Shown here piece after piece: positions 19,567 to 37,292 of a stretch of DNA of 37,292 nt. Every line of letters starts with the position of its first letter. The first letter of the stretch is position 1. The position numbers and the translations under genes are program-made. This DNA is from a virus: positions 1 through 37,292 of the IMG/VR virus record IMGVR_UViG_3300006947_000033; one strand, written 5' to 3'. Under the pieces are notes generated by a model. It had not been told where the DNA came from and did no database searches. It saw nothing but the letters and a program-made list of their open reading frames with translations.

Positions 19567-19578
19567 GAGAGTAGATTA

Positions 19579-20547: not shown

Positions 20548-20693
20548 TGGAAGACACCCGTAGATTTATGACTGAATGTCCTGTATGTGATAGTAACTGT
20601 TTCATCGATGTGTTAAACGTCGATGAGGCAGTGATATACTGTCCCATGTGCGGAACTGAAGCAGAAGTGGAAGAGGTTTTTATAGAAGACTAA
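20544..20693 (+). CDS. small zinc-ribbon protein
   Basis: A 49-aa protein in an ATGATG start overlapping the nrdB stop. C12-P-V-C15 and C33-P-M-C36 make a clear four-cysteine zinc ribbon; the flanks are acidic. Such small zinc proteins next to nrd genes could be regulators or redox partners, but no specific function is known. It is translationally coupled to nrdB. Confidence 0.75.
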   Translation: MMEDTRRFMTECPVCDSNCFIDVLNVDEAVIYCPMCGTEAEVEEVFIED

Positions 20694-20696
20694 ATA
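20689..20696 (+). promoter_or_regulatory. possible late promoter box (ACTAAATA)
   Basis: ACTAAATA at 20689-20696 overlaps the stop of the zinc-ribbon gene and resembles the relaxed late box (CTAAATA/NATAAATA) described for T4-like cyanophages. Distance to the ATG at 20725 is suitable. Only one base box supports it. Confidence 0.35.
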
Positions 20697-20724
20697 GTGT
20701 TATCTTCAATCAAGGTAGCACTAC

Positions 20725-22368: not shown

Positions 22369-22381
22369 GGAATTATAACAG

Positions 22382-22837
22382 ATGTGGAATATGAATGAAA
22401 GTGTATTCGAACCCAGCGAAGAGTTTTTAAAAGACTATGTTGGATTTGTGTATCGTATCACTGAGATAGATACAGGTAAGATGTATATAGGAAAGAAGTT
22501 CTTCTGGAAACCCAAGACACTGCCTAAGAACTCTGTACGTAAAAGAAAGATAAAAATGAAAGTTCCTTCGGACTGGCAGAAGTATTATGGTTCGAGTGAA
22601 CATCTATTAGAGTCAATCAAGAGAACTGGCGTTGATAACTATCACCGTGAAGTTCTAAAGTTATGCACAACTAAAGGCGAATGCTCCTACTATGAAGCAA
22701 AGTTACAATTTGAATACGATGTCCTACTCGACGAACAATACTACAATGCGTTTATCGGTTGCAAAATACACGCAAAGCATTTGCCCAAACCCGCTATCGA
22801 AATACGAACAGCAGAACCTTGGTTCAATAGACCTTAA
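22382..22837 (+). CDS. GIY-YIG domain endonuclease-like protein
   Basis: A 151-aa protein with a GIY-YIG-type core: G21-F-V-Y24 then M-Y35-I-G37-K-K near the N terminus, followed by a basic insertion (KPKTLPKNSVRKRKIKMK), D-W-Q-K-Y-Y-G-S-S-E and the C-S-Y-Y-E-A-K-L-Q helix with its conserved Glu. Closely similar proteins are frequent in T4-like marine phages and are annotated as Seg-like or GIY-YIG endonucleases. It sits between two carbamoyltransferase genes, so it may be a mobile homing gene or a resident nuclease. Confidence 0.82.
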   Translation: MWNMNESVFEPSEEFLKDYVGFVYRITEIDTGKMYIGKKFFWKPKTLPKNSVRKRKIKMKVPSDWQKYYGSSEHLLESIKRTGVDNYHREVLKLCTTKGECSYYEAKLQFEYDVLLDEQYYNAFIGCKIHAKHLPKPAIEIRTAEPWFNRP

Positions 22838-22840
22838 ACT

Positions 22841-24589
22841 ATGAGGAATCTAATCGCCGCTAATTGGGGTCATGACGCCTCACTATGTTTCTGGAATGAT
22901 GTTGCAAAAACATTTCATACTATTGAGATAGAAAAACTTGTAGGTATAAAACACTACAGAGGTCACGCACGTAAGGATGAAGAACTAGAGATTCTTAAAA
23001 GGTGTGCTAAGATAGCAGAAGAAGAGTTTGGCATACCCAACGACTATCACTGCATCATTCGTGGCAATCTATTGAACGATATCAAGAAAGAACAGATTGA
23101 AAATGGCACGGGTCGTTTGACAGATAATAAAGTTTCTGATGATATGATGCTCGATGTTGATAACATTAATGCTGTATTTAATACTAAGAATATTGATATT
23201 ACATATCGACATCATGAAGCACACGCATGGAATGGATTCGCTCCTTCGGGATTCGACAAAGCAGTCATACTTACTATGGATGGTGGTGGTAACGATGGGT
23301 TCACTCATTTGTTCACTGCTGAAAATCCTAATAAACCTCTGACAAGTCATACACGAATACATGGAGTTCAAGCGCATGGCAGAAACTATACTCAGGCATG
23401 CCTATGGTCGTTATACAGTATAATGCAAAGCACCGACTGTTCGTTAGATGTTGCGGGTAAAGCAATGGGAGCATCGTCGTACGGAAACACTGAAAGCGAT
23501 CCCTATTCGACTGCAACGAAACTGTTTATGAGAAGTACGACCGCTTGGAATAACTTTAGTCCTGGCAGAATGCTGTACGAGAAACATTACAACCAAACTT
23601 TGAAAGACGGTACTAACAGTAAGATTAAGTTTATCGAAGCGTTTAGTACTTCGCCTGAAGTGTACAATCCCTATAAACTATTTGTGGATGAGATTGATTG
23701 GCAAACAGAATGTGATATGGCAAGAGGCATTCAAGATGCGTTTGTTAAAGATGCTATAAAATGGTTCAAAGAGATTATGAGGGTTAGAAACGTAAACCTA
23801 GATGACTACGACAGAAATGTGGTGTTCTCTGGTGGTAGTGCGTTAAATGTGCTGTTCAATGATATACTACAGCGAGAGATGAATATCAATCTATTCGTAC
23901 CGCCTAATCCAGCAGACCAAGGAATTCCCTACGGTATGCTAGTGCAATGGATGGTCGATCATGCTACACAATACTCGCGTGAAGAAACTACGTACTCTGG
24001 TCAAAAGATACAAGACATGGAGGACTTACAGAAATATTATCATTCACACAAAGGCAGAATGACAACTATTGCAGATGTAGCAAGCATACTGAAAGATGAT
24101 AAGATTGTCGGACTCGTGCAAGGTGGCATGGAAGTAGGTGCGAGAGCGTTAGGCAATCGTTCTATACTTGCTGATCCAAAGGGCGCAGATAAGAAAGACA
24201 AAGTTAATGCAGTAAAGAGACGCGAAGCATACCGTCCGTTCGCGCCAGTATGTAGATTAGAAGATGTAGAGACTTACTTTGACTCAGTTCGTTATGACAA
24301 TCTATCTTATATGAATTTTGCGATAAAGACTCGTGAAGAACATATAGATAAGTTAAGAGCAGTTACTCATGTTGATGGGACAGCAAGAGTACAGACAGTT
24401 ACTAAAGAACAGAATACAATACTACATGATTTATTAAGTGAATTTGATGGTGTATTATTGAACACTTCTTTCAATGTGAAAGGATCTCCAATACTAAATA
24501 CACTTAAAGAAGCGTTCTATATGCTTGACGAAACCACACTCGATCATCTGGTAGTAGTAGATGAACATAACACAATATGGATTTTTTAA
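22841..24589 (+). CDS. carbamoyltransferase, NodU/TobZ family (copy 2)
   Basis: A 582-aa paralogue of the protein at 20725. It keeps G-H11-D-A-S, H124-H125-E126-A-H128 (Glu instead of Asp) and M-D-G-G-G-N-D-G (147-154), with the YrdC-like half marked by G-G-M-E-V-G-A-R-A-L-G-N-R-S-I and Y-R-P-F-A-P. It is longer by 35 residues and clearly diverged, so the two copies may use different acceptors. No good ribosome-binding site is visible; translation may depend on the upstream gene, three bases away. Reaction as for copy 1. Confidence 0.92.
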   Translation: MRNLIAANWGHDASLCFWNDVAKTFHTIEIEKLVGIKHYRGHARKDEELEILKRCAKIAEEEFGIPNDYHCIIRGNLLNDIKKEQIENGTGRLTDNKVSDDMMLDVDNINAVFNTKNIDITYRHHEAHAWNGFAPSGFDKAVILTMDGGGNDGFTHLFTAENPNKPLTSHTRIHGVQAHGRNYTQACLWSLYSIMQSTDCSLDVAGKAMGASSYGNTESDPYSTATKLFMRSTTAWNNFSPGRMLYEKHYNQTLKDGTNSKIKFIEAFSTSPEVYNPYKLFVDEIDWQTECDMARGIQDAFVKDAIKWFKEIMRVRNVNLDDYDRNVVFSGGSALNVLFNDILQREMNINLFVPPNPADQGIPYGMLVQWMVDHATQYSREETTYSGQKIQDMEDLQKYYHSHKGRMTTIADVASILKDDKIVGLVQGGMEVGARALGNRSILADPKGADKKDKVNAVKRREAYRPFAPVCRLEDVETYFDSVRYDNLSYMNFAIKTREEHIDKLRAVTHVDGTARVQTVTKEQNTILHDLLSEFDGVLLNTSFNVKGSPILNTLKEAFYMLDETTLDHLVVVDEHNTIWIF

Positions 24590-25308
24590 TGTTAAAATTT
24601 CAACAGTACATAAACGAACAAGCAATAATCGAACAAGCAGAACTAGACCTAATCAACGAAGGCGTAAATGATCCTGCAATCTTTAAAGCAGTGTTTCTTG
24701 CTGGTGGTCCTGGTAGTGGCAAGTCGTTCATTGTTGGCAAAACTGGATTAGGTAGTTTTGGATTTCGTGTAGTCAACTCTGATGATGCATTTGAAAACTC
24801 TATGAAGAAAGCAGGCATGGAGATGAATCCGGATAACATCTTCTCTGTTAAAGGACAAGAACTACGTGGTAAAGCAACTAAGTTGACTGCCGCTAAACAA
24901 GAGATGTATCTTAAAGGTCGTCTCGGTATTGTTATTGATGGAACTGGTAAAGACTCTGCTAAGATTAAAGCGCAAAGAGCAAAACTAGAGAAGATGGGAT
25001 ATGATACTGCACTGATTCTAGTTAATACAAATATCGACACCGCTGTTGATCGTGACGCACAACGTAAACGCTCTATTGGTAAGAAGATGCTTACCCCGAT
25101 GTGGCAGGCAGTGCAAGATAATATTGGAACATACCAGCAAATGTTTGGTCAAGAGAATACCTTTATCGTAGATAACAGCAAAGGCAAAGACTTCACAAAA
25201 GAAACTATGGCAGCGTACAAGGGTATTGGAGCGTGGTCCAAGAAACCAGTTAAAGATTCTCGTGCTAAGAAGTGGATTAAATCCGAGTTGAAAAATAAGA
25301 CTAGATAA
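24589..25308 (+). CDS. P-loop kinase (zeta-toxin/polynucleotide-kinase-like) with capsid-targeting-like leader
   Basis: A 239-aa protein. The frame is open from 24577, but the TAATG overlap with the carbamoyltransferase stop gives start 24589 and the leader MLKFQQYINE, another capsid-targeting-like sequence. The Walker A loop is G39-G-P-G-S-G-K45-S46. V-I-D-G-T-G (about 115-120) acts as the acidic strand, and the Arg-rich D-R-D-A-Q-R-K-R-S-I-G-K-K stretch looks like a lid. This fits the P-loop kinase group with zeta-toxin-like, chloramphenicol-phosphotransferase-like and polynucleotide kinase members. Substrate unknown. The leader suggests head packaging although the gene lies 7 kb from the head block. 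Confidence 0.82.
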   Translation: MLKFQQYINEQAIIEQAELDLINEGVNDPAIFKAVFLAGGPGSGKSFIVGKTGLGSFGFRVVNSDDAFENSMKKAGMEMNPDNIFSVKGQELRGKATKLTAAKQEMYLKGRLGIVIDGTGKDSAKIKAQRAKLEKMGYDTALILVNTNIDTAVDRDAQRKRSIGKKMLTPMWQAVQDNIGTYQQMFGQENTFIVDNSKGKDFTKETMAAYKGIGAWSKKPVKDSRAKKWIKSELKNKTR

Positions 25309-25322
25309 TAGTAAGAAATAGG

Positions 25323-25351
25323 TTGACAGGCGTGCTATGAACGTGTATAAT
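25323..25351 (+). promoter_or_regulatory. sigma70-type promoter (P7)
   Basis: TTGACA at 25323-25328 and TATAAT at 25346-25351, spacer 17, TG immediately before the -10 box. Drives the gene at 25399 and probably the following small genes. Confidence 0.87.
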
Positions 25352-25398
25352 ACACTTAGTACGTTTTTAATTGAATAAGATGATAGGTTGTTAGTAAT

Positions 25399-25830
25399 AT
25401 GAGTTATGGAAGAAAGAAAGAAGTATATCAAATACTTAAACTAGTTGAATCAGCAAAGTCTCGTAACGACAAGATCCAAGTCTTGCGTGATAACAATATA
25501 ATGGCACTACGAGATGTACTTCAAGGTACATTCGATCCCACTATCAAATTCAAATTGCCAGAAGGCACACCTCCGTTTACTGCAAATGAAGAAAACACTG
25601 CACCCTCATCATTACTAAGGCATCATAGATTCTTTAAGTATTTTGTTGAGGGAGTTGGTGAGTGTGAAAAACTCACAAACCTCAGGCGTGAGAAAATGTT
25701 CATTGAAGTACTCGAAGCGATTCACCCACAAGATGCCGAAATTGTAATCAAAATGGTTGCAAAGAAAACCCCATTGAAAGGATTGACCAAGAAATTGGTA
25801 CAGGAGGCAATGCCTGATTTGATCCGATAA
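25399..25830 (+). CDS. DUF6433-like conserved phage protein
   Basis: A 143-aa protein. The stretch ALRDVLQGTFDPTIKFKLPEGTPPF (about 36-60) and the C-terminal KKTPLKGLTKKLVQEAMPDL are recognisable from the DUF6433 family of T4-like cyanophages (from memory). The protein is soluble and helical. Function is unknown; the own strong promoter P7 suggests early expression. Confidence 0.75.
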   Translation: MSYGRKKEVYQILKLVESAKSRNDKIQVLRDNNIMALRDVLQGTFDPTIKFKLPEGTPPFTANEENTAPSSLLRHHRFFKYFVEGVGECEKLTNLRREKMFIEVLEAIHPQDAEIVIKMVAKKTPLKGLTKKLVQEAMPDLIR

Positions 25831-25878
25831 TTTGTCATGTTGAAGTTTAATTAACTAACCCCCTAACGGAGTACGCCT

Positions 25879-26423: not shown

Positions 26424-27149
26424 ATGAAATCAAAACAAACTAAAGGTCAGTTCATTACAGCGGCACCGGCACGTCGACCCAGAACACTTCGTCTCTGCGA
26501 CTTGATGACTATCGATCCTCTTACAGATAAGCAGAGAGATACGTTTGAAGCATATAAGTCTGGTGATCATCTAGCACTCGTAGGAACAGCAGGAACAGGT
26601 AAGACATTTCTTGCTCTATATCTTGCGTTCGAAGAGATGATGAATAAGTCAACAATATACGAATCAGTTAGAATCGTTCGCTCAGTTGTACCTACAAGAG
26701 ATGTTGGTTTCTTGCCAGGAACACTAGAAGAGAAACTTGATGCGTTCACAGGACCTTATCGTTCTGCTTGTGCTGAGTTGTTCGGAGACGGTGAAGCGTA
26801 TGATAAACTGATTGATGCCAACCAATTAACATTCGAGTCTACATCATTTATTCGTGGTGTCACATATGATAACTCTATTGTTATTGTCGATGAGATGCAG
26901 AACTTAAACTTTCACGAGTTAGATTCTATCATCACACGTATCGGTCAAAACAGTAAGATTATATTTGCAGGTGATTATCTGCAATCAGATTTCAAGAATA
27001 AGAATGAAAAAGAAGGGGTTAATAAATTCCTAAGTATACTTGAGAACATGAAACATTTCAGCATAGTTACATTTACTTGGGAAGATATCGTAAGGTCTGA
27101 CTTCGTGAGAGACTATATAATGACTAAAGAACATATGGGCATAACATAA
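26424..27149 (+). CDS. phoH: PhoH-like ATPase
   Basis: A 241-aa PhoH-family P-loop NTPase. Walker A is G54-T-A-G-T-G-K60-T61; Walker B is S-I-V-I-V-D-E-M-Q-N. The characteristic RIVRSVVPTRDVGFLPG segment, ITRIGQNSKIIFAGD and Q-S-D follow. PhoH is one of the commonest auxiliary genes of marine phages. It is related to helicase-type ATPases, and a role in RNA turnover or phosphate stress has been proposed but not settled. It overlaps the lysozyme gene by one base. Confidence 0.93.
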   Translation: MKSKQTKGQFITAAPARRPRTLRLCDLMTIDPLTDKQRDTFEAYKSGDHLALVGTAGTGKTFLALYLAFEEMMNKSTIYESVRIVRSVVPTRDVGFLPGTLEEKLDAFTGPYRSACAELFGDGEAYDKLIDANQLTFESTSFIRGVTYDNSIVIVDEMQNLNFHELDSIITRIGQNSKIIFAGDYLQSDFKNKNEKEGVNKFLSILENMKHFSIVTFTWEDIVRSDFVRDYIMTKEHMGIT

Positions 27150-27600: not shown

Positions 27601-27756
27601 ATGGCAAAGTACGGTCGATTCGATCCCCGTAATAAGAAGAAAGAGCAGAAGTCTGGTAAGAAAGTAAGAACACCACAGGATGCTATGAATTTTATTAACT
27701 CACTTGATAAGAGGTCTTTCTCGGAGTCTACTACAGATCAACGTGAACAAAAGTAA
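27601..27756 (+). CDS. small basic phage protein (KYGRFDPRNKK type)
   Basis: A 51-aa protein. It begins MAKYGRFDPRNKKKEQKSGKK and is very rich in Lys and Arg; the second half (TPQDAMNFINSLDKR) is helical. Short proteins with a K-Y-G-x-x-D-P-R-N-K-K start are familiar from T4-like cyanophages. It overlaps the next gene by TAATG. Nucleic-acid binding is possible from charge only. Confidence 0.62.
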   Translation: MAKYGRFDPRNKKKEQKSGKKVRTPQDAMNFINSLDKRSFSESTTDQREQK

Positions 27757-28643
27757 TGCCGTTACAAGAGTACGTCGATCCATGGAAAGGACTGTCTTTT
27801 CTTTTTACAGATACTAATACTGTAGATTGGAAGGGCACCATTGGTGTCGGCGACATACTCTTTGGTCTTAATGCTGTACATATGCTCACACATCTAGCAC
27901 GAAAGTCTGGTCGCGATGTGCCATTCACTACGATGAATGTGCATTGGAATCACAGCGAAGACCACCTCCATCACTTCGAAGATCCCGAAACTATCATTGA
28001 GCGAACTGATTACATTCATTCGTTCTATCACGATAAAGAATCCGTAAAGATTAATCATATCTTTAACTCCACTGACAATGAGATTGAACGTCTACGTCAT
28101 AGAGGACTACAACGTAAGTCTGGTGCGAGAGATGTGCTAGATGGTATCCCGTCATGGATGTTCAGACGCGATTGCTGGCACGATTCAAGTGAAAGCAAGA
28201 AGATCGTATTCTGGAGACCATTCGTACTTAATGCGGAGATCCCACGTGGGTGGAAACGAACCTTTCAACCCGAAGACTGGGAAAGAATACTCGACATACT
28301 ACGCGCCAAAGGTTATGAACTTATTGAGTTGTCGTACCGCACCCCCGTAAGAGAAGCATTCTATCATATCAACACTTGTCGTTTTGGTATATTCTACGAT
28401 GGCATGTGGCAGTACATTGCAAAGAATCTATGTAAACCTGTTGTAGCATTAGGCGACAATGGTATCATTCACATACACAATCCGCAGGGCGTCAACTTCA
28501 AGTTACCTAAACCTGATGCTGGCGGTGGTACTGTATTCTCTTATCTTGAGGGTTTAGATAAAGGAAATCAAAATCACATGGATCGTCGTGCAGAGAAATA
28601 TCGAGATTTTATACTAAATGAGTTGCAAGTTGAAGACATTTAG
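27756..28643 (+). CDS. GT-B-like glycosyltransferase (putative)
   Basis: A 295-aa protein. The N-terminal I-G-V-G-D-I-L-F-G-L-N-A-V-H-M-L helix (about 29-44) looks like the first glycine loop of GT9/heptosyltransferase-like GT-B enzymes. In the C-terminal half, LRAKGYELIELSYRT, REAFYHINTCRFGIFYDGMWQYIA and CKPVVALGD match the order of a GT-B nucleotide-sugar site. It opens the modification cluster that runs to the window end. Assignment to a family rests on layout, not a decisive motif. Confidence 0.65.
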   Translation: MPLQEYVDPWKGLSFLFTDTNTVDWKGTIGVGDILFGLNAVHMLTHLARKSGRDVPFTTMNVHWNHSEDHLHHFEDPETIIERTDYIHSFYHDKESVKINHIFNSTDNEIERLRHRGLQRKSGARDVLDGIPSWMFRRDCWHDSSESKKIVFWRPFVLNAEIPRGWKRTFQPEDWERILDILRAKGYELIELSYRTPVREAFYHINTCRFGIFYDGMWQYIAKNLCKPVVALGDNGIIHIHNPQGVNFKLPKPDAGGGTVFSYLEGLDKGNQNHMDRRAEKYRDFILNELQVEDI

Positions 28644-28651
28644 TGTATACT
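28623..28651 (+). promoter_or_regulatory. possible promoter (P8) for the modification cluster
   Basis: TTGCAA at 28623-28628 and TATACT at 28646-28651, spacer 17. The boxes are weaker than P1-P7. It overlaps the end of the 27756 gene and faces a 45-base gap before the radical SAM gene. A small palindrome, ACTATACATAGT (28650-28661), overlaps the -10 box. Confidence 0.45.
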
Positions 28652-28688
28652 ATACATAGTAGTCTATAACGTAATAAAGTGAATTAAT

Positions 28689-29657
28689 ATGAAAATCGAT
28701 AGAGCAGTAATTGAGATTGAAGGTGCATGTAACTTCTCATGTACCATGTGTCCACAAGACAAGCGCAACGAACAGGGCGGGCGACACAAAGACTTTCTTC
28801 GTAAGATGAATCTATTGGAGTTTGAGGACTACGTAAGAGATTGCGCACAGCATGGTTTACGTGTAGTTAATCTTGATGGTTCTGGCGAAGCAACAATTCT
28901 ACGAACACTTCCTGAATACATTAAGATTGTTAAGAGATACAATGCTGAGTGCGTTATCTTCTCTAACGGTTTTAAGATGCATGGTCAATTCATGCGCGAC
29001 TGTGTTGATGCAGGACTCGACTTCTTTAGATTCTCGTTCATCGGTTCTAATCCAGAAAAGTATGATGAGTGGATGTATAACACACGCGGATCTAACTATG
29101 AGTTCATTAAGAAGAACATCCGCGAGATGCGCGACTATGTTAAGTCATCGGGTTCTACTTGTACCGTAGCAACATATCATCTTATCACTGACAACGACAA
29201 CTACGAGAACGAACTTGCTGAGTATAAAGCAATCGTTGAAGAGTTAGATGTTAAGACTGAAATCTGGAAGATGCACAACTGGTCAGGCGTATATGAGTTA
29301 GATGTTAATGCTCGAAAGGGTGAAGTTAAAACATGTGGTCGACCATTCTCACCTGATGTTGTGATTCGTGCTGGTGGTTTAGATGGTAACAGAGGTGCAG
29401 TTGCGCCATGTTGTCAAGTATTAGGTCGCGACGAAGAAGCAGTTCTTGGTCATTGTTCTGAGAATACTATCGAAGAGATTTGGGATGGACCTGCTTACAC
29501 CGAGTTAAGAGACAATCATACTACGGGCGACTATCCAGATTACTGTAAGTCGTGTGACTTTTTACTTGACGATCCAGAAGTTTTAGTCTATAGTAACCAT
29601 GAACGTGATCTACACCAGATGTACGGCACTGAATTTAGTCTTGAGGAATTTCGATGA
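28689..29657 (+). CDS. radical SAM/SPASM-type enzyme
   Basis: A 322-aa radical SAM protein. C14-N-F-S-C18-T-M-C21 binds the [4Fe-4S] cluster that cleaves S-adenosylmethionine. D-G-S-G-E-A stands where the GGE motif is expected. C-terminal cysteines (C-G-R-P-F, A-P-C-C-Q, C-K-S-C) resemble a SPASM or twitch domain for auxiliary clusters, usual in peptide- or sugar-modifying enzymes such as moenomycin/aminoglycoside dehydrogenases and RiPP maturases. Substrate unknown; the glycosyltransferase neighbours favour a sugar or a protein side chain. It overlaps the next gene by ATGA. Confidence 0.88.
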   Translation: MKIDRAVIEIEGACNFSCTMCPQDKRNEQGGRHKDFLRKMNLLEFEDYVRDCAQHGLRVVNLDGSGEATILRTLPEYIKIVKRYNAECVIFSNGFKMHGQFMRDCVDAGLDFFRFSFIGSNPEKYDEWMYNTRGSNYEFIKKNIREMRDYVKSSGSTCTVATYHLITDNDNYENELAEYKAIVEELDVKTEIWKMHNWSGVYELDVNARKGEVKTCGRPFSPDVVIRAGGLDGNRGAVAPCCQVLGRDEEAVLGHCSENTIEEIWDGPAYTELRDNHTTGDYPDYCKSCDFLLDDPEVLVYSNHERDLHQMYGTEFSLEEFR

Positions 29658-30235
29658 AACCAGATGTTCATATGATTACTATTACTGGCAATTCTATATC
29701 AGAACACTATCGCGATCTTGTTAAACCGTCATGGGAAGATGCTGGTTGGAAAGTTTTAAACTTCGAAGCGTTAGTTCCTGAGGACTGTGTGAATGTGAAA
29801 ATCTTACCCTTAGGTGATAAACGTCGAGGCGCTAAGATAGTTGGATTTACTGAAACAGAGATAGCAGTTTGGTACAGTCATTACTATGCTTGGATGCTAT
29901 GTCGTAAGTTAGATAAACCTATCATCGTAGCAGAGCATGACATTCTATTAGAACAAGATATTGATCCAGATGTGTTCAATCATCCTATTGCCTGCTTGTC
30001 TCATGTCACACGAAGAAATGGTGATCATGCTAAACTCGCGGGTGGTGCATATTATATTACGCCAGCAGGCGCAAAGAGATTATGTGCAATCAAAGACCAT
30101 AAGAAAGACTCTGTTGATTATAACTCTGATGCTTGGATACATCGTATTTGTGATACTTACGGTAAATGGTTTATGATGACAACTATACAAGTGCAAGACC
30201 AAGAAGTTGGTGTTACAGTTGAGCATAGAAAATGA
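29654..30235 (+). CDS. GT25-like glycosyltransferase (copy 1)
   Basis: A 193-aa protein of the GT25 (LPS/procollagen galactosyltransferase) type. The core motif is W-Y-S-H-Y-Y-A-W-M-L-C followed by P-I-I-V-A-E-H-D-I, where E-H-D replaces the E-D-D nucleotide-sugar/metal motif. A-G-G-A-Y-Y-I-T-P-A-G-A-K-R-L and a later acidic segment (V-D-Y-N-S-D-A-W) also fit. There are four such proteins in this cluster. The acceptor is unknown. Confidence 0.78.
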   Translation: MKPDVHMITITGNSISEHYRDLVKPSWEDAGWKVLNFEALVPEDCVNVKILPLGDKRRGAKIVGFTETEIAVWYSHYYAWMLCRKLDKPIIVAEHDILLEQDIDPDVFNHPIACLSHVTRRNGDHAKLAGGAYYITPAGAKRLCAIKDHKKDSVDYNSDAWIHRICDTYGKWFMMTTIQVQDQEVGVTVEHRK

Positions 30236-31017
30236 AAAGATTAATATATCAAGTAGCAGTAGGCAAACCTTCGAAGTTATATGCAACGTGTATAGAGACA
30301 GTCTCCTTATATTGCGAACGTCATGGTATAGAGCATATCGTACAGACAACTCCTAAACTTAGAATCAAACCCGACATCTTTACCACGGGTCGTAGCACTG
30401 AGTCATACAGTAAACATGGTGGTTTTCTACCTATCTTCGAGAAAGAGAATGCGTTCGATCTCCTCGATTCTTATGACCAGATTGCTATAGTTGATGCTGA
30501 CATATTCATACGTGAAGACGCTCCTAATATCTTCGATGATTTCGGAACAGATCGTGCGTTCGGTGCAGTCATTGAGCGAGAGATGCCTATCACTAGAGAG
30601 TATCAGAACAAGATACAAAACTACTCTAATATGCAGTACGCTGGATTACACACACCTCAAGTTGACTTCAAACCTAACAGATTAGGATTCGAGTTCGCTA
30701 ACATGGGTCTAATTCTACTGAACAGTAAGTTGTTTAAACCTTATCTTAAAGGACAGACAGCAAAACAGTTTCTAAATCGTATTGAGTTTAAACCATTCGT
30801 TGATGGTGTCAATGCTTGGAAATGGTCTACAGATCAGACTCTATTGAACTATTTCATAAAAAAAGAGAAGGTTTCGTTTAAATCGCTTGACTTTAGATGG
30901 AATGGTCTGTATACTGTAAATACAAAGATAACTGAATGCTACTTCGTTCACTTCTTTCTGAAAGATAAACTGCCGAATGGTGGTGAGAATGTAAGCGAGT
31001 TAATAGGAAACATATGA
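30232..31017 (+). CDS. GT8-like GT-A glycosyltransferase
   Basis: A 261-aa protein with a GT-A fold signature. An N-terminal strand (RLIYQVAVG) is followed by a helix and the metal-binding Q-I-A-I-V-D-A-D-I-F motif (DxD, about 82-91), then F-E-F-A-N-M-G-L-I-L-L-N and W-S-T-D-Q-T-L-L-N, the typical D-Q motif. The C terminus has a Y-F-V-H-F-F-L-K-D-K motif with the late His. It should transfer a sugar from a nucleotide sugar. Overlaps on both sides show it is part of one operon. Confidence 0.78.
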   Translation: MKRLIYQVAVGKPSKLYATCIETVSLYCERHGIEHIVQTTPKLRIKPDIFTTGRSTESYSKHGGFLPIFEKENAFDLLDSYDQIAIVDADIFIREDAPNIFDDFGTDRAFGAVIEREMPITREYQNKIQNYSNMQYAGLHTPQVDFKPNRLGFEFANMGLILLNSKLFKPYLKGQTAKQFLNRIEFKPFVDGVNAWKWSTDQTLLNYFIKKEKVSFKSLDFRWNGLYTVNTKITECYFVHFFLKDKLPNGGENVSELIGNI

Positions 31018-32117
31018 AGTCATACGAAGATAAAACCCAGAAGTACAGTACGTGGGGAGATAAACTTCTCCAACACGCTGACCTTCTGGCGTCCATACAG
31101 ATAGAAGATAAGTTTAAACCAGTTACAGTTCAACTGTCGCTATGTGAGATGTGTGACAGTGATTGTCCGTTCTGCTCTGTTGCGGCACGACCTCTGAAGA
31201 GTTACATCCCATGGGAGCAAGTGAAACAACTTCTGCTTGACTTTAAAGATTTGGGTGCTAAGAGTATCGAGATTACAGGTGGTGGTAATCCAATGCTGTA
31301 TCGCGATAAAGAGACCAAGAAGAATATTAACGATGTGATTAAGTTCTGCAACGAATGTGGATTCGATGTTGGTATTATTACTAACACAGAGAAACTTGAA
31401 CGTCATCTTAATCCCGAAGTATATCCAATGATTAACTGGATTCGTATCTCACTGATTAAGTTAGATGAGCGAACTGCACCAGAGAAGTATGATTTCGGAT
31501 CATTCCCTCACAGCAAGTTGGGATTCAGTTACATAATCTACGATAGCACAGGCGATGGACCTGATGTATTATCTCGCACGAACAAACCTTATCAAGGCAC
31601 TACAGTAGAAAGCATCGAACGTATTGCTAAACTGATTGAGTTGAACCCTGGTGTTAAGTTCTGTCGTATTGCAGGCAACTGTTTATTGTCAGGACACAAC
31701 ACAGAGATACGTGGTAGATTCGGTGCTATCATTGATGCGCTTGACAAACACGACAAGTTCTTTATCAAAGAGATATGGGATCAAGATAAACCATTCTCTG
31801 ACGGTTGTTACGTAGGACTAGTTCGACCATACATTGCACCACACCCTGACGGTGGCACATATCAAGTTTATATTTGCACAAGTCATGTACTAGAGAATCG
31901 AATCTATGATTTGGACTATTCTCTTGGTGATATTAAAGATATCAAAGCAATATGGAACAAGGCGAATCTACTGTACGCAAAGACAGGCAACCCGTATGAA
32001 GTACGTGGTAACTGTGGTGATGACTGGGACAAGTCATGCGTGAAGTGCTTCTACTATAACAATAACAAACTACTACATACAGTAGCGCAACCAATGGAAG
32101 ACCCTAACTTTCCGTGA
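31014..32117 (+). CDS. second radical SAM enzyme
   Basis: A 367-aa radical SAM protein with C47-D-S-D-C51-P-F-C54 and an extra C44. E-I-T-G-G-G-N-P is the SAM-binding glycine motif. Later parts include D-G-C-Y-V-G-L-V-R-P-Y-I-A-P-H-P-D-G-G and C-V-K-C, suggesting a C-terminal auxiliary cluster. It differs strongly from the radical SAM at 28689, so the two likely perform separate steps. ATGA overlap with the GT8-like gene. Reaction unknown. Confidence 0.86.
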   Translation: MKSYEDKTQKYSTWGDKLLQHADLLASIQIEDKFKPVTVQLSLCEMCDSDCPFCSVAARPLKSYIPWEQVKQLLLDFKDLGAKSIEITGGGNPMLYRDKETKKNINDVIKFCNECGFDVGIITNTEKLERHLNPEVYPMINWIRISLIKLDERTAPEKYDFGSFPHSKLGFSYIIYDSTGDGPDVLSRTNKPYQGTTVESIERIAKLIELNPGVKFCRIAGNCLLSGHNTEIRGRFGAIIDALDKHDKFFIKEIWDQDKPFSDGCYVGLVRPYIAPHPDGGTYQVYICTSHVLENRIYDLDYSLGDIKDIKAIWNKANLLYAKTGNPYEVRGNCGDDWDKSCVKCFYYNNNKLLHTVAQPMEDPNFP

Positions 32118-32131
32118 GACATGAAACAGGG

Positions 32132-32260
32132 ATGTTCATTTTGCGAATGATGTTGATTGTCTGGTTATCGATAAGTGTTGATGGCGAAGATGATCTTTAC
32201 GGAGTACTCTCCTCAATAAGAAGACTCCAAGAGTGTAAGAAACTAGTAACTATACAATAG
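32132..32260 (+). CDS. very small protein with hydrophobic N terminus (tentative)
   Basis: A 42-aa reading frame filling the gap between the radical SAM and methyltransferase genes. It begins MFILRMMLIVWLSISVDGE: a short basic-hydrophobic segment like a signal or membrane anchor, followed by DLYGVLSSIRRLQECKK. Alternative starts are the tandem ATGs at 32147/32150. No ribosome-binding site is strong. It may be a small membrane peptide or chance. Confidence 0.4.
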   Translation: MFILRMMLIVWLSISVDGEDDLYGVLSSIRRLQECKKLVTIQ

Positions 32261-32268
32261 GTGATGAT

Positions 32269-32853
32269 GTGGCATTTGACAAGACGTACTACGAAACAAA
32301 CAACTATACGAACTATCTCGAAAGAGGTGATCGTTATCAACAAACTGCCGCAGAGTTGCTGGCACACTTAAAGACCATGAACTTAGATCATGGACCCTTT
32401 CTCGACTTCGGTTGTGCTGTAGGGTTTCTACTTCAGGGTCTAAAGAATCTAAGACCTGATGAGGAGATGTACGGTGTTGACATCTCTGAATATGCTCGTG
32501 AAGTATGTAAGGAGAAAGAACTCACTGCATTAGCAGAAGTGGAATTCGCTAAGAGTCACGGTGTTGTATTTGCTATGGATGTATTCGAGCATATGCCTAT
32601 CGATCAACTCGACCTATTCTTCAATCTTATTAAAGCAGAAACTATCGTATTTCGTATGCCGGTACCTGCCGCCGAAGGCGAAGATTACTACCTTGATGTA
32701 TCTCGTGCTGATCCTACACATCTTATTAAGTGGACTAAGGACGAGTGGAGAGAATTCTTTGTAGAGAATAACTATATTCCTCTTGACTTAAACCTCTCAA
32801 CGGTGTATAATAGTACTGGAGTCTACACTGGATTAGCGATTAGAGTTAAATAA
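32269..32853 (+). CDS. class I SAM-dependent methyltransferase
   Basis: A 194-aa protein with GTG start behind an AGGTGAT ribosome-binding site. Motif I is F-L-D46-F-G-C-A-V-G; the acidic strand 2 follows in M-Y-G-V-D-I-S; V-F-A-M-D-V-F-E-H-M-P is the post-motif typical of Methyltransf_11/23-type enzymes acting on small molecules or sugars. Position within the glycosyltransferase cluster suggests O- or N-methylation of a sugar. It overlaps the next gene by TAATG. Confidence 0.82.
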   Translation: MAFDKTYYETNNYTNYLERGDRYQQTAAELLAHLKTMNLDHGPFLDFGCAVGFLLQGLKNLRPDEEMYGVDISEYAREVCKEKELTALAEVEFAKSHGVVFAMDVFEHMPIDQLDLFFNLIKAETIVFRMPVPAAEGEDYYLDVSRADPTHLIKWTKDEWREFFVENNYIPLDLNLSTVYNSTGVYTGLAIRVK

Positions 32854-33395
32854 TGTACAACGCATTTAAAATAGAAAGAATCTTTACCAACGATGATATA
32901 TATCATTTGAGACATCTATTCCATTCCTGTGAAGAGAGTTTAGCACATCAAGATTATAATCTCTATGATGTTGATAAACGTATTATTCCAAACTCTGCTA
33001 CACATCCTCTGTTACAAAAACTAAATGAGTATATGGACTTAACTCCTATGTCTCATTATTTTGTTAAGTATACACCAGAAGCATTCACTAGTCTGCATAC
33101 AGATGATGACGGCGTAGTAAAGTTGACTGTCGTAACATTGCTTGAGGATATGGATCTAGTAGGTGGTGAAACACTGGTGCTTGATCGTTATGTTAAAAGT
33201 GCTAGACCTAAACATAAGTATGCAAAACGTGGTAAGATGGGAGAAGCACCAATTGGTACGTCACTCATTCCTATTATCGCTAGAATGACCCTGGGTGACT
33301 CGATCATCTATGACAATGCAATTAAGCATGGCGTTTGTCAAGTTGAGAAGGGTTATAGATTAGTATTAGTTAGTTGGTATAAAGAACATGATTAA
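32853..33395 (+). CDS. 2-oxoglutarate/Fe(II)-dependent oxygenase (prolyl-hydroxylase-like)
   Basis: A 180-aa protein. The iron triad is H82-T-D84 and H159 (I-K-H-G-V), and R169 (G-Y-R-L-V-L-V-S-W-Y) should bind 2-oxoglutarate; G-G-E-T-L-V-L (about 104-110) is the usual middle strand. Length and motif spacing fit the single-domain P4H-like oxygenases common in marine T4-like phages. It hydroxylates either a protein side chain or a small molecule. Its place beside GT25 enzymes is notable because hydroxylation makes a site for glycosylation. Confidence 0.86.
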   Translation: MYNAFKIERIFTNDDIYHLRHLFHSCEESLAHQDYNLYDVDKRIIPNSATHPLLQKLNEYMDLTPMSHYFVKYTPEAFTSLHTDDDGVVKLTVVTLLEDMDLVGGETLVLDRYVKSARPKHKYAKRGKMGEAPIGTSLIPIIARMTLGDSIIYDNAIKHGVCQVEKGYRLVLVSWYKEHD

Positions 33396-33867
33396 GATTG
33401 CACACCGTGGTAATGTAAGTGGACCTAATCCTGGTCGCGAGAACACATCTAAGTATGTTGATGAAGCAATTGTATTAGGATATATCGCTGAAGTGGATAT
33501 ATGGAAAGTCGGTGATAGATTATATATGACACATGAATGCAAGTTGAACGATAGAACTGAAATCAACATTGAATGGTTAAAGTCACGAAAGAATGAACTT
33601 GTTATACACTGTAAAGATATTATTGCATTACAGTTTTTCTCGTGTTCACTTGAAGACTGGCACTTCTATTATCACGAGAGTGACGCATATACTCTAACAA
33701 GTGCTAATTGGATTTGGGCATTTCCCGGGAGTCCTGTTCACCCATATAAACCTAAAGACATTTACAATTCTGCTGATTGTGTTTCTATATGCAACTTACC
33801 AGAACTGAGTGACCAAGATGTATCTCTGTTTGCTGGTGTATGTTCTGATTACATAGAGAACTATTAA
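33388..33867 (+). CDS. GDPD-like phosphodiesterase, short form
   Basis: A 159-aa protein related to glycerophosphodiester phosphodiesterases. Motif one is I-A-H6-R7-G-N with E18-N-T, followed by E35-V-D37-I and H49 in Y-M-T-H-E, the residues that bind metal and phosphate in the family. The usual GDPD length is about 250 residues, so this is a compact or C-terminally altered version; P-G-S-P-V-H-P replaces typical late motifs. It may remove or exchange a phosphodiester-linked substituent, or be a non-catalytic relative. Confidence 0.68.
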   Translation: MIKIAHRGNVSGPNPGRENTSKYVDEAIVLGYIAEVDIWKVGDRLYMTHECKLNDRTEINIEWLKSRKNELVIHCKDIIALQFFSCSLEDWHFYYHESDAYTLTSANWIWAFPGSPVHPYKPKDIYNSADCVSICNLPELSDQDVSLFAGVCSDYIENY

Positions 33868-34571
33868 TGAAAGTCTATTGTATTTACACAGAGAAAGATC
33901 CTCGATCTAAGCAGGGATTGCAAAGGTGTAAAGATTCTGCTAAGAAGCACGACATCGATCTTATATCATATCCCTGCATACACTTCTCTGACTTAAAAGA
34001 AGTTTGGAAAGAGCATGACATCAAAGCAAAGTATAAACCAATCCCAGGACAACAGACGTACTTTCCCGAGAAGTTAGCACCACAGACTAGGGTAGCAAAC
34101 GGCACTACTCATTATATGTTGTATAAGAAGTGTGTCGAATTGAACGAACCTATTGCTATACTAGAACACGATTCATTTTTTGTCGCACCTCTTCCTACAG
34201 ATTTACCTCCTAACATAGATGAGGCGATTATTCAAATATCATCACATTCTGCGATGCAACTTACTCCTACTATGTTGAAGGGTTGTGGTCGTGCTAATAA
34301 GATGAGAAAATATGGTACGACACAAAAACCATATCGCGACTGGACTGGAGAGCGAGGTGTTATATCTCATCCTCTATCAGGCACAAACGGCACTAGTGGT
34401 TACATAATAGGTCCCGTGGCAGCACAGCGAATGATTGACTATATAAATGTAGAAGGTATAGGATTTGCTGATAGATTACGTGAAGATCATATTGGCGAAG
34501 GAAATATTCACTTACAAGTTCCGCAGAGCGTACTCTGTCCGAACGATATTAAATCAGCGAGACTGACATGA
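33867..34571 (+). CDS. GT25-like glycosyltransferase (copy 2)
   Basis: A 234-aa protein with the GT25 core: H-Y-M-L-Y-K-K-C-V-E-L-N-E-P-I-A-I-L-E-H-D-S, again with E-H-D in place of E-D-D. Later G-T-S-G-Y-I-I-G-P-V-A-A-Q-R-M-I-D-Y and a D-H motif match copies at 29654, 35187 and 35882. It shares one base with the GDPD-like gene upstream and overlaps the methyltransferase downstream. Specificity unknown. Confidence 0.78.
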   Translation: MKVYCIYTEKDPRSKQGLQRCKDSAKKHDIDLISYPCIHFSDLKEVWKEHDIKAKYKPIPGQQTYFPEKLAPQTRVANGTTHYMLYKKCVELNEPIAILEHDSFFVAPLPTDLPPNIDEAIIQISSHSAMQLTPTMLKGCGRANKMRKYGTTQKPYRDWTGERGVISHPLSGTNGTSGYIIGPVAAQRMIDYINVEGIGFADRLREDHIGEGNIHLQVPQSVLCPNDIKSARLT

Positions 34572-35194
34572 ACATGAAAGACATCTTTTTAAAGAACGGC
34601 AGTGATAAAGGCGTTACTGGTAAATACCCACACCACTATCACACAGTGTATGAGTCAGTATTCGAATCGCGTCGGAACGAACCTATTAAGATATTAGAGG
34701 TAGGTATTTGGAAAGGAACGAGTCATCAATCATGGTTAGATTACTTTCCCAATGCAGAAGTCTATGGCATTGACATATTTACTCGTGTACAACCCGAAGA
34801 CGTTCCTGCACTACAGGACGATCGGTGCCACTACATCAAAGCAGACAGTACAGATCCTAGAATACAAGGTCATATTGAAGCGGCATGGGGCAAAGATATT
34901 ACGTTTGACTTTATCATTGATGATGGTTTACATACACCCAGTGCAAACAAAAAGACTTTCGAGAACCTATGGGAGTATACAGCAAAGGGCGGCAGTTTCT
35001 TAATTGAAGATGTTTGGCCGATCAACAAGATGACTTTCGATGAAGCGAGGAATCCTTGGTTACAGAAAGCAGTATACAGTCCAGTATTCTATGACATGTT
35101 CCTCGAGGCATTGCCCGAAGGATACGTAGAATACGATTGTCGATATACGAGCGGTGTTCCTGATAGTTATATTATAGAGATAAAAAATGATTGA
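34568..35194 (+). CDS. class I SAM methyltransferase, MycE/TylE-like type
   Basis: A 208-aa protein. G-S-D-K-G and H-H-Y-H-T-V-Y-E near the N terminus, then I-L-E44-V-G-I-W-K-G50 (motif I), V-Y-G-I-D-I, and D-F-I-I-D-D-G-L-H with G-G-S-F-L-I-E-D-V resemble the sugar O-methyltransferases of macrolide pathways (MycE/TylE type), which use a D-D metal site. A sugar hydroxyl is thus a likely acceptor. ATGA overlap with the GT25 gene upstream. Confidence 0.8.
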   Translation: MNMKDIFLKNGSDKGVTGKYPHHYHTVYESVFESRRNEPIKILEVGIWKGTSHQSWLDYFPNAEVYGIDIFTRVQPEDVPALQDDRCHYIKADSTDPRIQGHIEAAWGKDITFDFIIDDGLHTPSANKKTFENLWEYTAKGGSFLIEDVWPINKMTFDEARNPWLQKAVYSPVFYDMFLEALPEGYVEYDCRYTSGVPDSYIIEIKND

Positions 35195-35885
35195 AGGTTA
35201 CGTAATAACACTGAGTGATAATCCTACATCTTGGCATTCAAGCGATAGACTCATTGCTAGTTCAGAGAAAGTAGAGAACGAGTTTACGATTCATAAGACT
35301 CAAGCAATCACGCCTGATCGTGTGACAACATTGATGAAACAGCATCGACTTCATTGGAACTACCCTTGGCAAGGATCACAACTTGATTTGCAGTCTGGTC
35401 TTACGAAGTCTGCTTATCAAACTGTTGATCCCAATAAGAGAATCGCTTGCTTTCTGTCACACTATCTGCTATGGAAAAAGTGTGTAAGTGAGAAGAAAGA
35501 CATAATGATATTCGAGCATGATGCATATTTTACAAGTAAGTTAGAATATAGTTTGCTATTTCAATCACCTTATGATATAATAGGACTTAATGATCCAATG
35601 GGAGCAACTAGACGCGCCCAACTATATCATGAAAGTGTAAGCAAGAGACGCGGAGTTAGTCCAGCACCTAAGATAGATAGCATTGAGATTCCACAAGGCA
35701 TAGCAGGAAACTCTGCATACTTCATTAAACCTGAAGGCGCACAGAAACTAATAAACTTAGTGAACGAATACGGTGCTTGGCCAAACGATGCTATTATGTG
35801 TAAACAATTAATACCTCGCAAACTGGGACAATTGTTTCCTTATGTAACTAAAGTACAAGGTATCGAATCGACGACCTCAATATGA
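35187..35885 (+). CDS. GT25-like glycosyltransferase (copy 3)
   Basis: A 232-aa protein. G-Y-V-I-T-L-S-D-N starts the Rossmann-like half; R-I-A-C-F-L-S-H-Y-L-L-W-K-K-C and D-I-M-I-F-E-H-D-A are the GT25 signatures. N-S-A-Y-F-I-K-P-E-G-A-Q-K-L precedes a W-P-N-D-A acidic motif. The insertion between residues 50 and 80 (WNYPWQGSQLDLQSGL) differs from the other copies. It overlaps both neighbours by a few bases. Confidence 0.8.
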   Translation: MIEGYVITLSDNPTSWHSSDRLIASSEKVENEFTIHKTQAITPDRVTTLMKQHRLHWNYPWQGSQLDLQSGLTKSAYQTVDPNKRIACFLSHYLLWKKCVSEKKDIMIFEHDAYFTSKLEYSLLFQSPYDIIGLNDPMGATRRAQLYHESVSKRRGVSPAPKIDSIEIPQGIAGNSAYFIKPEGAQKLINLVNEYGAWPNDAIMCKQLIPRKLGQLFPYVTKVQGIESTTSI

Positions 35886-36532
35886 AATCATTTGTAATTA
35901 CAATAAAATCTTTACCTGAGTCTGTTGCAGTAGCAGAGCGAATGATAGCATCGGCACCTGAGTATGATGTTCAGATGTTCAATGCTATTACTCCTAAGGA
36001 TGATCCATATAAACTATTTGATTATTATGGATTGCCTCTGCATGGATTTAGAGAAGAGGGATCAGTAAAACTTAACTGTATGTCTGCATTCTTATCACAC
36101 TACACATTATGGAAAATGTGTGTGAAAGATAATGTCGAGTACCAAATATTCGAGCATGACGCTGTAGCAGTTATGCCTATTCCTAGAGTGATCAAATATA
36201 CGGGTTGTGTCAATATTGGTGCACCTAGTTATGGCAGGCAAGCGCAGTGTGGTCAGATGGGTGTTAATCCTTTGACAACTAAGACTTACTTTCCTGGCGC
36301 ACATGGTTATCGACTCAAACCTGATGCGGCAAAGGCATTTATTCAAGGTGCTTATGACTATGCCAGACCAACAGATGTATTTCTAAACATTGCAATCTTT
36401 CCTTGGTTAGAAGAGTTCTATCCACATCCTGTGGTTGCAAGAGATACATTTACTACTATTCAAAAAGAAGGTGGGTGTGTAGCAAAGCATAATTATGATG
36501 CTAACAAATATCGGATAATAAGTAATGTCTAA
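35882..36532 (+). CDS. GT25-like glycosyltransferase (copy 4)
   Basis: A 216-aa protein most like the copy at 35187. S-F-V-I-T-I-K-S-L-P starts the first strand; L-N-C-M-S-A-F-L-S-H-Y-T-L-W-K-M-C and Y-Q-I-F-E-H-D-A are the GT25 core; H-G-Y-R-L-K-P-D-A-A-K-A-F and R-P-T-D-V follow. The adjacent copies 3 and 4 probably arose by tandem duplication. Substrate unknown. Confidence 0.8.
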   Translation: MKSFVITIKSLPESVAVAERMIASAPEYDVQMFNAITPKDDPYKLFDYYGLPLHGFREEGSVKLNCMSAFLSHYTLWKMCVKDNVEYQIFEHDAVAVMPIPRVIKYTGCVNIGAPSYGRQAQCGQMGVNPLTTKTYFPGAHGYRLKPDAAKAFIQGAYDYARPTDVFLNIAIFPWLEEFYPHPVVARDTFTTIQKEGGCVAKHNYDANKYRIISNV

Positions 36533-37181
36533 TACAAGCAGGTGCTTTATTACTGGGTGTGATTCTAATACAGAATGGATGCTCCCTTGGTTTATTAAGC
36601 ACTACACTAAGCACAACAAAACACCTATTGTCTTTATGGACTTTGGTGTATCTCGTGAAATGAAAGGATGGTTACAGGCAGATAATATATTTGCTGACTA
36701 CATAACAATGGAGAAACAGAAAGTTGGTGGTTGGTTCTATAAACCACAAGCATTACTTGCATCTCCTTGTGAAGAGACTTGCTGGATTGACACAGACATT
36801 CATGTACTAGGCGATCTATCGGGTGTCTGGGATCATGTTGAAGATAATAAACTAGGCATGGTAGAAGACAAACCTTGGAGCGCACGAAGAGGTGAAGTAT
36901 GGCACAACTCTGGTGTTGTTGCAATGAAGGGCAAACCTAATATACTTCGCAAGTGGGCAGATGAATGTCGAAAGAATCCTAAAGTAGGAGACCAAGAAGT
37001 ACTTCACTCGATGATGCTTACTCCCATTTCACGTATGACACATATCAATAGTGTGCCTAATATATACAACTGGTTACGTATACAATTACTTGATGGTCAA
37101 GACAACCCTAACAAACTTGCTATGCACTGGACAGGTGCAAAGGGCAAAGAACAGATAAAGAAGATAATGTATAATGAGTAA
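36525..37181 (+). CDS. GT-A glycosyltransferase with DxD motif
   Basis: A 218-aa protein. An N-terminal C-F-I-T-G-C-D strand and helix lead to T-C-W-I-D-T-D-I-H-V-L, the metal-binding DxD motif (about 86-96). W-H-N-S-G-V-V-A-M-K and G-D-Q-E-V-L-H are the later GT8-like motifs. A-M-H-W-T-G near the C terminus supplies the late His. It is distinct from the GT8-like protein at 30232. It overlaps both neighbours. Confidence 0.76.
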   Translation: MSNTSRCFITGCDSNTEWMLPWFIKHYTKHNKTPIVFMDFGVSREMKGWLQADNIFADYITMEKQKVGGWFYKPQALLASPCEETCWIDTDIHVLGDLSGVWDHVEDNKLGMVEDKPWSARRGEVWHNSGVVAMKGKPNILRKWADECRKNPKVGDQEVLHSMMLTPISRMTHINSVPNIYNWLRIQLLDGQDNPNKLAMHWTGAKGKEQIKKIMYNE

Positions 37182-37292
37182 AGTATTTCATATTATTGGT
37201 AACGGTGATCAAGCGAAGCATTACCTGAAAGAACCACGAAAGGGAACTAAACTTCTCTGTAATATGCCTCCGTTCGAGATACCTAGAGATGA
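37174..37292 (+). CDS. partial gene, unknown protein of modification cluster
   Basis: The first 39 codons of a gene running off the window, in an overlap with the previous gene. It begins MSKVFHIIGNGDQAKHYLKE. The I-I-G-N-G-D strand-loop and L-L-C-N-M-P-P-F match a type of protein found near glycosyltransferases in T4-like cyanophages (from memory), perhaps a sugar-processing enzyme. Too short to classify. Confidence 0.6.
   Translation, partial: MSKVFHIIGNGDQAKHYLKEPRKGTKLLCNMPPFEIPRD

Follow-up and report, generated by a model that had tools for sequence, protein, structure and literature searches.

A modular run of glycosyltransferase and radical SAM genes next to phoH in a T4-like marine phage, with a host envelope glycan as a candidate acceptor

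Clusters that combine glycosyltransferase and radical SAM (S-adenosylmethionine) genes are already published for marine T4-like phages, both cyanophages (2010) and pelagimyophages (2020). Lipopolysaccharide (LPS) gene clusters, with one position near phoH, were described in the marine cyanomyoviruses P-SSM2, S-SSM7 and S-SM2 in a paper from which the words radical SAM and glycosyltransferase are absent, and which left open whether the glycan clusters of marine T4-like phages do anything (PMC3037559). In pelagimyophages, glycosyltransferase islands were reported in which radical SAM cassettes are gained and lost and GT8 is the commonest family, and such genes were viewed as modifying the host O-chain against co-infection (PMC7029224). 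Here we analyse a run of such genes in a 37,292-bp viral fragment from IMG/VR (IMGVR_UViG_3300006947_000033; the window), in which 13 open reading frames (ORFs) on the + strand, termed genes A to M, occupy positions 27756–37181. What is new here is a defined locus with fixed ends and a variable middle, a phage-specific radical SAM core, a link to sugar O-methyltransferases, a recurring radical SAM–methyltransferase pair and evidence of selection.

Nearly all of the genes of the window lie on the + strand, and its GC content is 39.8%. The ribonucleotide-reductase stretch shares 72% DNA identity with the Kyanoviridae phage Melnitz, and genes for ribonucleotide reductase, PhoH and a tail-lysozyme-like protein are located 5′ of the run; therefore the window is assigned to a phage of the marine T4-like group (Kyanoviridae). 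In lying beside phoH in a phage of this type, the run resembles the ‘LPS’ gene clusters near phoH. As stated in the original prediction, at least 13 consecutive and mostly overlapping genes are present, with 10 of the 12 junctions overlapping by 1–8 bases each, while the genes at the other two are separated by 45 bp (28643/28689) and 151 bp (32117/32269). The cluster also continues past the window as had been supposed, with a 14th ORF (gene N) that overlaps gene M by 8 bases and exits at the contig end. The gene order in related phages, a check proposed at that time, showed synteny with 67–97% protein identity in the closest relative with long flanks (G002), where the run in the same order is followed by gene N and then by unrelated genes, and partial synteny in 92 loci. 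Thus the run is not a chance assembly. Its composition (GC 39.9% in the run versus 39.7% upstream) gave no support for recent acquisition.

We analysed the left-end genes by structure prediction together with family searches. Gene A had no family match in Pfam, PHROG, NCBIfam or PDB-sequence searches. However, its AlphaFold2 model from 45 aligned sequences was confident (predicted local distance difference test, pLDDT, 91.1), and the fold neighbours by VIA Z were TibC (11.8), WaaC (11.3) and WaaF (11.1) with root-mean-square deviations (rmsd) of 4.1–4.6. The protein previously called ‘GT-B-like’ was thereby confirmed, at the level of the predicted model, to have a GT-B fold, closest to GT9-type heptosyltransferases. 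For gene D (pLDDT 92.0, from 43 aligned sequences), the fold neighbours were a PBCV-1 capsid glycosyltransferase (VIA Z 16.8, rmsd 3.0, 193 aligned) and LgtC (Z 14.1), and residues D88 and D90 were invariant. The GT8 scores (PF01501) of both gene D (14.8 bits) and gene M (12.8 bits) were below the cut-off of 24.3. Two GT-A transferases had been proposed, and whereas gene D is confirmed by the model and the fold search, gene M is a weaker case with a DxD motif (D89 and D91 invariant) and the sub-threshold GT8 score only. Gene M has a homologue in phage HTVC008M. Homology of gene M to gene D was rejected by profile comparison, in which only the DxD region aligned (E 0.029, probability 1.7%).

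The four GT25-like transferases (genes C, I, K and L) all scored above the Pfam cut-off as anticipated (PF01755, 27–63 bits against 24), and the ExD motif was present in all four copies, with E110 and D112 (gene K numbering) invariant in 30 sequences. The GT25 profile matches a bacterial GT25 enzyme as well as a procollagen galactosyltransferase. Both expected radical SAM enzymes were also found above the Pfam cut-off, gene B with 48.6 bits (PF04055, cut-off 29.5) and a SPASM match, and gene E, each with an invariant CxxxCxxC motif (C14/C18/C21 in B and C47/C51/C54 in E). Additional invariant cysteine residues, five in the C-terminal part of B (C216, C241, C242, C286 and C289) and four in E (C265, C288, C342 and C345), would fit one auxiliary cluster in each protein. 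The C-terminal part of B aligned weakly with BtrN, an amino-sugar dehydrogenase, among solved structures (E ~5e-5). Both proteins were far under the NCBIfam curated cut-offs of the named radical SAM equivalogs viperin, MoaA, PqqE and the maturases of ribosomally synthesized and post-translationally modified peptides (60.7 versus 380 for B), and gene E was rejected as a viperin (39.7 bits versus a cut-off of 180).

The predicted 2-oxoglutarate (2OG) oxygenase, gene G, matched Oxygenase-NA only marginally (26.9 bits against a cut-off of 26.2), with H82, D84, H159 and R169 invariant. Two methyltransferases, genes F and J, were above the Pfam cut-off, as forecast. In a profile search gene J matched only MycE (3ssm, 5.8e-20) and TylE (8ia9, 5e-18), and its invariant residues D118, D119, H122, E147 and D148 (DDGxH and ED) presumably correspond to the MycE ligands and catalytic histidine. 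Judged by sequence, gene J resembles the sugar O-methyltransferases of the MycE/TylE type. The proposal that gene H encodes a glycerophosphodiester phosphodiesterase (GDPD)-like protein found no support: the residues HRGN, EN and ExD are invariant in its alignment, but none of five records (the window, G002 and three relatives) gave a PF03009 match at E≤10, whereas the control matched in 11 of 14 genomes. Overall, the claim that the cluster holds enough chemistry for a complex methylated sugar is supported by the four GT25s, the GT9-like and GT8-like enzymes, the MycE/TylE-like methyltransferase and the carbamoyltransferases encoded upstream. Gene N, examined as the complete copy of G002, had no match in family searches.

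Table 1. Coordinates of the genes of the run and of neighbouring features in the window
Feature	Coordinates	Strand	Basis or remark
Carbamoyltransferase 1, NolO/NodU-type	20725–22368	+	Pfam Carbam_trans_N and _C, phrog_1601
Carbamoyltransferase 2, NolO/NodU-type	22841–24589	+	Pfam/PHROG match
phoH	26424–27149		Run starts at 27756
Conserved small ORF, 51 aa (MAKYxRFDPRNKKK...)	27601–27756	+	Stop overlaps gene A start by 1 base
Gene A, GT-B glycosyltransferase, GT9/heptosyltransferase-like	27756–28643	+	AlphaFold2 model and fold comparison
Gene B, radical SAM enzyme with C-terminal auxiliary-cluster (twitch/SPASM-like) region	28689–29657	+	PF04055, PF13186
Gene C, GT25 glycosyltransferase	29654–30235	+	PF01755 27 bits (cut-off 24); ExD invariant
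Gene D, GT-A glycosyltransferase, GT8-like	30232–31017	+	AlphaFold2 model and fold search
Gene E, the other radical SAM enzyme, forming a pair with gene F	31014–32117	+	PF04055 38.1 bits (cut-off 29.5)
Gene F, class I SAM methyltransferase	32269–32853	+	PF13489 above cut-off; phrog_27380 8e-14
Gene G, 2OG/Fe(II) oxygenase, HxD...H intact	32853–33395	+	PF09859 (Oxygenase-NA); phrog_61 oxygenase part
Gene H, conserved protein of unproven family, GDPD-like motif residues	33388–33867	+	phrog_34507 1.7e-18 (unknown function)
Gene I, GT25 glycosyltransferase	33867–34571	+	PF01755 38.3 bits
Gene J, sugar O-methyltransferase-like (MycE/TylE relative), 208 aa	34568–35194	+	PF13578
Gene K, GT25 glycosyltransferase, right-end core	35187–35885	+	PF01755 63.3 bits
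Gene L, GT25 glycosyltransferase, right-end core	35882–36532	+	PF01755 49.2 bits
Gene M, probable GT-A transferase (DTD motif), right-end core	36525–37181	+	Sub-threshold GT8
Gene N, 5′ part	37174–37292	+	Complete in G002 as a 251-aa protein, last gene of the run

The architecture of the locus was compared among the 92 related loci, most of which were gathered by similarity to gene B and some by gene E. The left end (GT9-like, radical SAM, GT25 and GT8-like; A–D) and the right end (GT25, GT25 and GT-A; K–M) recur across loci: A was found in 90, B in 89, D in 83, C in 60, K in 51 and L in 48, and A and B were neighbours in 84, with median spacings of −7 bp (A–B), 6 bp (K–L) and −7 bp (L–M). The interval between D and K, in the 44 loci having both, ranged from 3 bp (no gene) to 7.6 kb (eleven ORFs) and held 21 arrangements and 38 ORF families. 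Constant genes flanking strain-specific ones are typical of bacterial surface-glycan loci. Within the middle, genes E and F are at most ~220 bp apart in almost all loci having both (826 bp in one contig), and the pair is also found in the clusters of Pelagibacter phage HTVC008M and Synechococcus phage SynMITS9220M01, the latter carrying a heptose pathway. The middles of relatives add cupin, GATase and, in G003 and G004, HAD plus NTP_transferase genes, with a sulfotransferase nearby. A frequent alternative middle, seen in G003 (50001–90000, reverse; oriented ~18949–25875), consists of GATase/Peptidase_C26, cupin and HAD plus NTP_transferase genes, again with the sulfotransferase in the vicinity; we take its pair of GATase and nucleotidyltransferase to recall the phosphoramidate capsule decoration of Campylobacter.

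Gene B is the best-conserved gene of the left-end core. A scan of IMG/VR for close relatives gave 353 for B, 20 for E and 5 for G. The gene B identities were taken from the best 80 of its 353 relatives and are thus biased upward, and its high identity among the loci is partly a selection effect because most loci were gathered by B similarity. In the loci gathered by gene E, the identity of B was 68–76%, about as conserved as phoH (64–71%). Among 84,980 bacterial and archaeal genomes B gave two hits, both on phage contigs within metagenome-assembled genomes; gene B is accordingly taken as phage-specific, with no close cellular homologue found in this set. Bacterial homologues of B as functional context were rejected, since both hits are phage contigs by synteny. 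The two contigs, labelled Sphingobacteriales and Euryarchaeota, bear phage synteny (phoH–A–B and more) and look like mis-binned phage.

The ratio of nonsynonymous to synonymous substitution rates (dN/dS) against G002 was 0.03–0.21 for each of the 13 genes, a range similar to that of nrdA, nrdB and phoH, and the run is therefore not inert filler. Pairwise distances correlated with those of phoH at 0.79 for A, 0.49 for B, 0.61 for D, 0.86 for K and 0.62 for L, compared with 0.85 for a neighbouring backbone gene, suggesting that the ends of the run travel mostly with the phage backbone. No membrane segment was detected in the 13 genes, the top 19-residue Kyte–Doolittle mean being 1.31.

Our preferred reading, which we hold tentatively, is that the run forms a cytoplasmic glycan-assembly and sugar-tailoring operon, the acceptor of which would most likely be a host envelope glycan of the lipid-A core or lipo-oligosaccharide (LOS) type. 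We infer that soluble cytoplasmic enzymes would transfer sugars one by one from host nucleoside diphosphate (NDP)-sugar pools during infection, the conserved end modules A–D and K–M laying down the constant parts of the glycan and the swappable middle (E–J here) determining its decoration. The radical SAM enzymes, the 2OG oxygenase, the MycE-like O-methyltransferase, the second methyltransferase and the upstream carbamoyltransferases may alter the sugars by oxidation or epimerisation, hydroxylation, methylation and carbamoylation. The acceptor would be a lipid-A core/LOS-type glycan assembled on the cytoplasmic side, and an infected cell with such an altered glycan might no longer be taken for a receptor by competing phages. 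GT9-like, GT8-like and GT25 enzymes acting in the cytoplasm fit an acceptor of this type, as does the proposal made for pelagimyophages (PMC7029224). This reading is supported by the closeness in fold of gene A to the LPS-core heptosyltransferases WaaC/WaaF, by the relationship of gene J to sugar O-methyltransferases, by carbamoyltransferases upstream (next to A in 18 loci) and by the presence of the E–F pair in the HTVC008M cluster and in the heptose-pathway cluster of SynMITS9220M01. By analogy with bacterial surface-glycan loci, the fixed ends and variable middle may also be counted in its favour.

Several points weigh against a host glycan. The protein heptosyltransferase TibC and the capsid glycosyltransferase of PBCV-1 scored as high as or higher than the LPS enzymes in the fold comparisons, and thus a protein acceptor fits equally well. 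No sugar-nucleotide synthesis gene and no NDP-sugar pathway was recognised in 27756–37292 of the window, itself a fragment, or in the remainder of the G002 run. A flippase, polymerase, ligase (Wzx/Wzy/ligase) or lipid-carrier transferase was likewise unrecognised in the locus, and as membrane segments are also lacking, the run cannot build O-antigen alone.

The same enzymes could instead act in the cytoplasm to give a protein of the capsid or tail a decorated glycan that protects the particle or tunes adsorption, by analogy with the chloroviruses and their capsid protein. We consider this a serious possibility, as all 13 enzymes are apparently soluble and a lipid-linked step was not recognised, the best fold matches of genes A and D are TibC and the PBCV-1 capsid enzyme respectively, and the core cassette is retained across diverged phages with gene B lacking a close cellular homologue. 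However, a common fold does not establish the acceptor, and the locus does not adjoin recognised fibre genes in G001 or G002. A collagen-like target for the GT25/2OG pair, as in procollagen, was rejected, since no frame of the window or of the related loci compared, including 150 of the 152.7 kb of G001, had a run of at least seven Gly-X-Y triplets. The late-promoter motif TATAAATA showed no enrichment over shuffles and was uninformative, so no inference on timing was drawn. Between a host LPS-type core and a virion protein, the host core is slightly favoured. A more specific proposal, that the modular and all-soluble locus, arranged in the manner of a bacterial O-antigen locus, with its phage-specific radical SAM enzyme (gene B) yields radical-tailored, methylated and carbamoylated sugars on the virion, seems rather unlikely.

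It is improbable that the run serves DNA hypermodification, in which a complex sugar on a modified base would evade restriction. A TAGT-family glycosyltransferase matching phrog_842 (beta-glucosyl-HMC-alpha-glucosyltransferase) borders the cluster on its downstream side in G001 (84228–85690) and in G002 (30667–31281, ~1 kb beyond), with none within the window. Phage C48C1, which has genes A and B, encodes a Tet_JBP protein (OQ984149.1, ~50309–50755), so that at least one phage with both genes may oxidise 5-methylcytosine, and the marginal Oxygenase-NA score of gene G points in the same direction. However, PF00303 (the thymidylate synthase/hydroxymethylase family) and Tet_JBP (PF12851) were absent from the five relatives G001–G005, one of them of 152.7 kb; the TAGT-bearing relatives had no detectable TET and the TET-bearing C48C1 no detectable TAGT; and a gene set with four GT25s, one GT9-like fold and a methyltransferase of the MycE type speaks for a glycan. 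Since the relatives lack hydroxymethyl-pyrimidine synthases and TET, DNA is disfavoured among the three targets first proposed (DNA, a virion protein or a surface glycan). The TAGT at the cluster edge in two relatives means that DNA keeps some weight.

A small-molecule product, such as a soluble glycoside or a nucleoside-like metabolite, is suggested by analogy: the BtrN- and MycE/TylE-like matches stem from antibiotic biosynthesis, which the pairing of a radical SAM enzyme with a methyltransferase likewise recalls, and gene E is weakly similar to viperin-type radical SAM enzymes. We regard such a product as very improbable, with gene E well below the viperin cut-off, no scaffold-forming, export or resistance gene recognised, and seven glycosyltransferases fitting an oligosaccharide better. 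That the genes are functionless and merely fill the headful, a possibility raised for the cyanophage LPS clusters (PMC3037559), has hardly any probability left and is largely refuted by purifying selection on every gene, together with the invariant catalytic residues and the tight overlapping order.

Upstream of the run, the two carbamoyltransferases probably belong to the same pathway and would carry out sugar O-carbamoylation; in 18 of the related loci a homologue precedes gene A by no more than 400 bp. A homing-endonuclease-like ORF (22382–22837) sits between the two diverged genes. The 51-aa ORF that ends at the start of gene A, overlooked in the original prediction, gave 27 tblastn matches among the compared loci, some of which are overlapping copies of one contig, and no match in a family search. 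In G003 and G004 a protein of 109–110 aa, which begins with an EF-hand-like segment and has two hydrophobic stretches, is encoded between a carbamoyltransferase and gene A, and it is the sole membrane-protein candidate seen near the run. Further upstream, a single ORF (17578–19566) encodes the large subunit of ribonucleotide reductase with a C-terminal glutaredoxin domain.

With every gene of the run under purifying selection and with a recognisable architecture across related loci, the question raised in 2010 of whether these clusters do anything can be put to the test one gene at a time. A host-surface acceptor would make the locus a superinfection barrier that varies between strains; a virion acceptor would mean that phages of abundant marine bacteria are glycosylated particles whose sugars are tailored by radical SAM enzymes.

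Finally, we compared the locus with known systems. The profile of gene J matches the catalytic domain of the macrolide sugar O-methyltransferases MycE and TylE and keeps their DDGxH and ED residues, but gene J is predicted to be a 208-aa single domain within a phage glycan cluster. Chlorovirus PBCV-1 likewise glycosylates its capsid with virus-encoded cytoplasmic glycosyltransferases, and gene D has the fold of its capsid enzyme; however, the identity is 14–15% and the virus belongs to another class. Phage C48C1 (OQ984149, Kyanoviridae) has adjacent homologues of A (37.5%) and B (70.8%) and, a short distance away, a carbamoyltransferase, but differs in having no detectable C–M homologues in the 41-kb stretch compared and a Tet_JBP protein elsewhere. 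The statement that no described pathway has this exact set holds for the exact set within the literature searched, but not for the kind of cluster, which is described (PMC3037559 and PMC7029224). As in the cyanomyovirus LPS clusters (PMC3037559), a large run of glycan genes is found in a T4-like marine phage, near phoH, which is one of the positions reported there; in contrast with them, the present run has no recognised sugar-nucleotide synthesis gene inside, and has a radical SAM/GT9-like core common to many phages, fixed ends and a variable middle. The pelagimyophage island, for example that of HTVC008M, which has E, F and M homologues, shares the many glycosyltransferases and the radical SAM cassettes. 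Whereas that island sits between VrlC and gp14 with tail fibres, the locus described here lies between phoH/lysozyme and a region encoding late-regulator, ssDNA-binding and tail-tube proteins, and is distinguished by four GT25s and a MycE-like methyltransferase.

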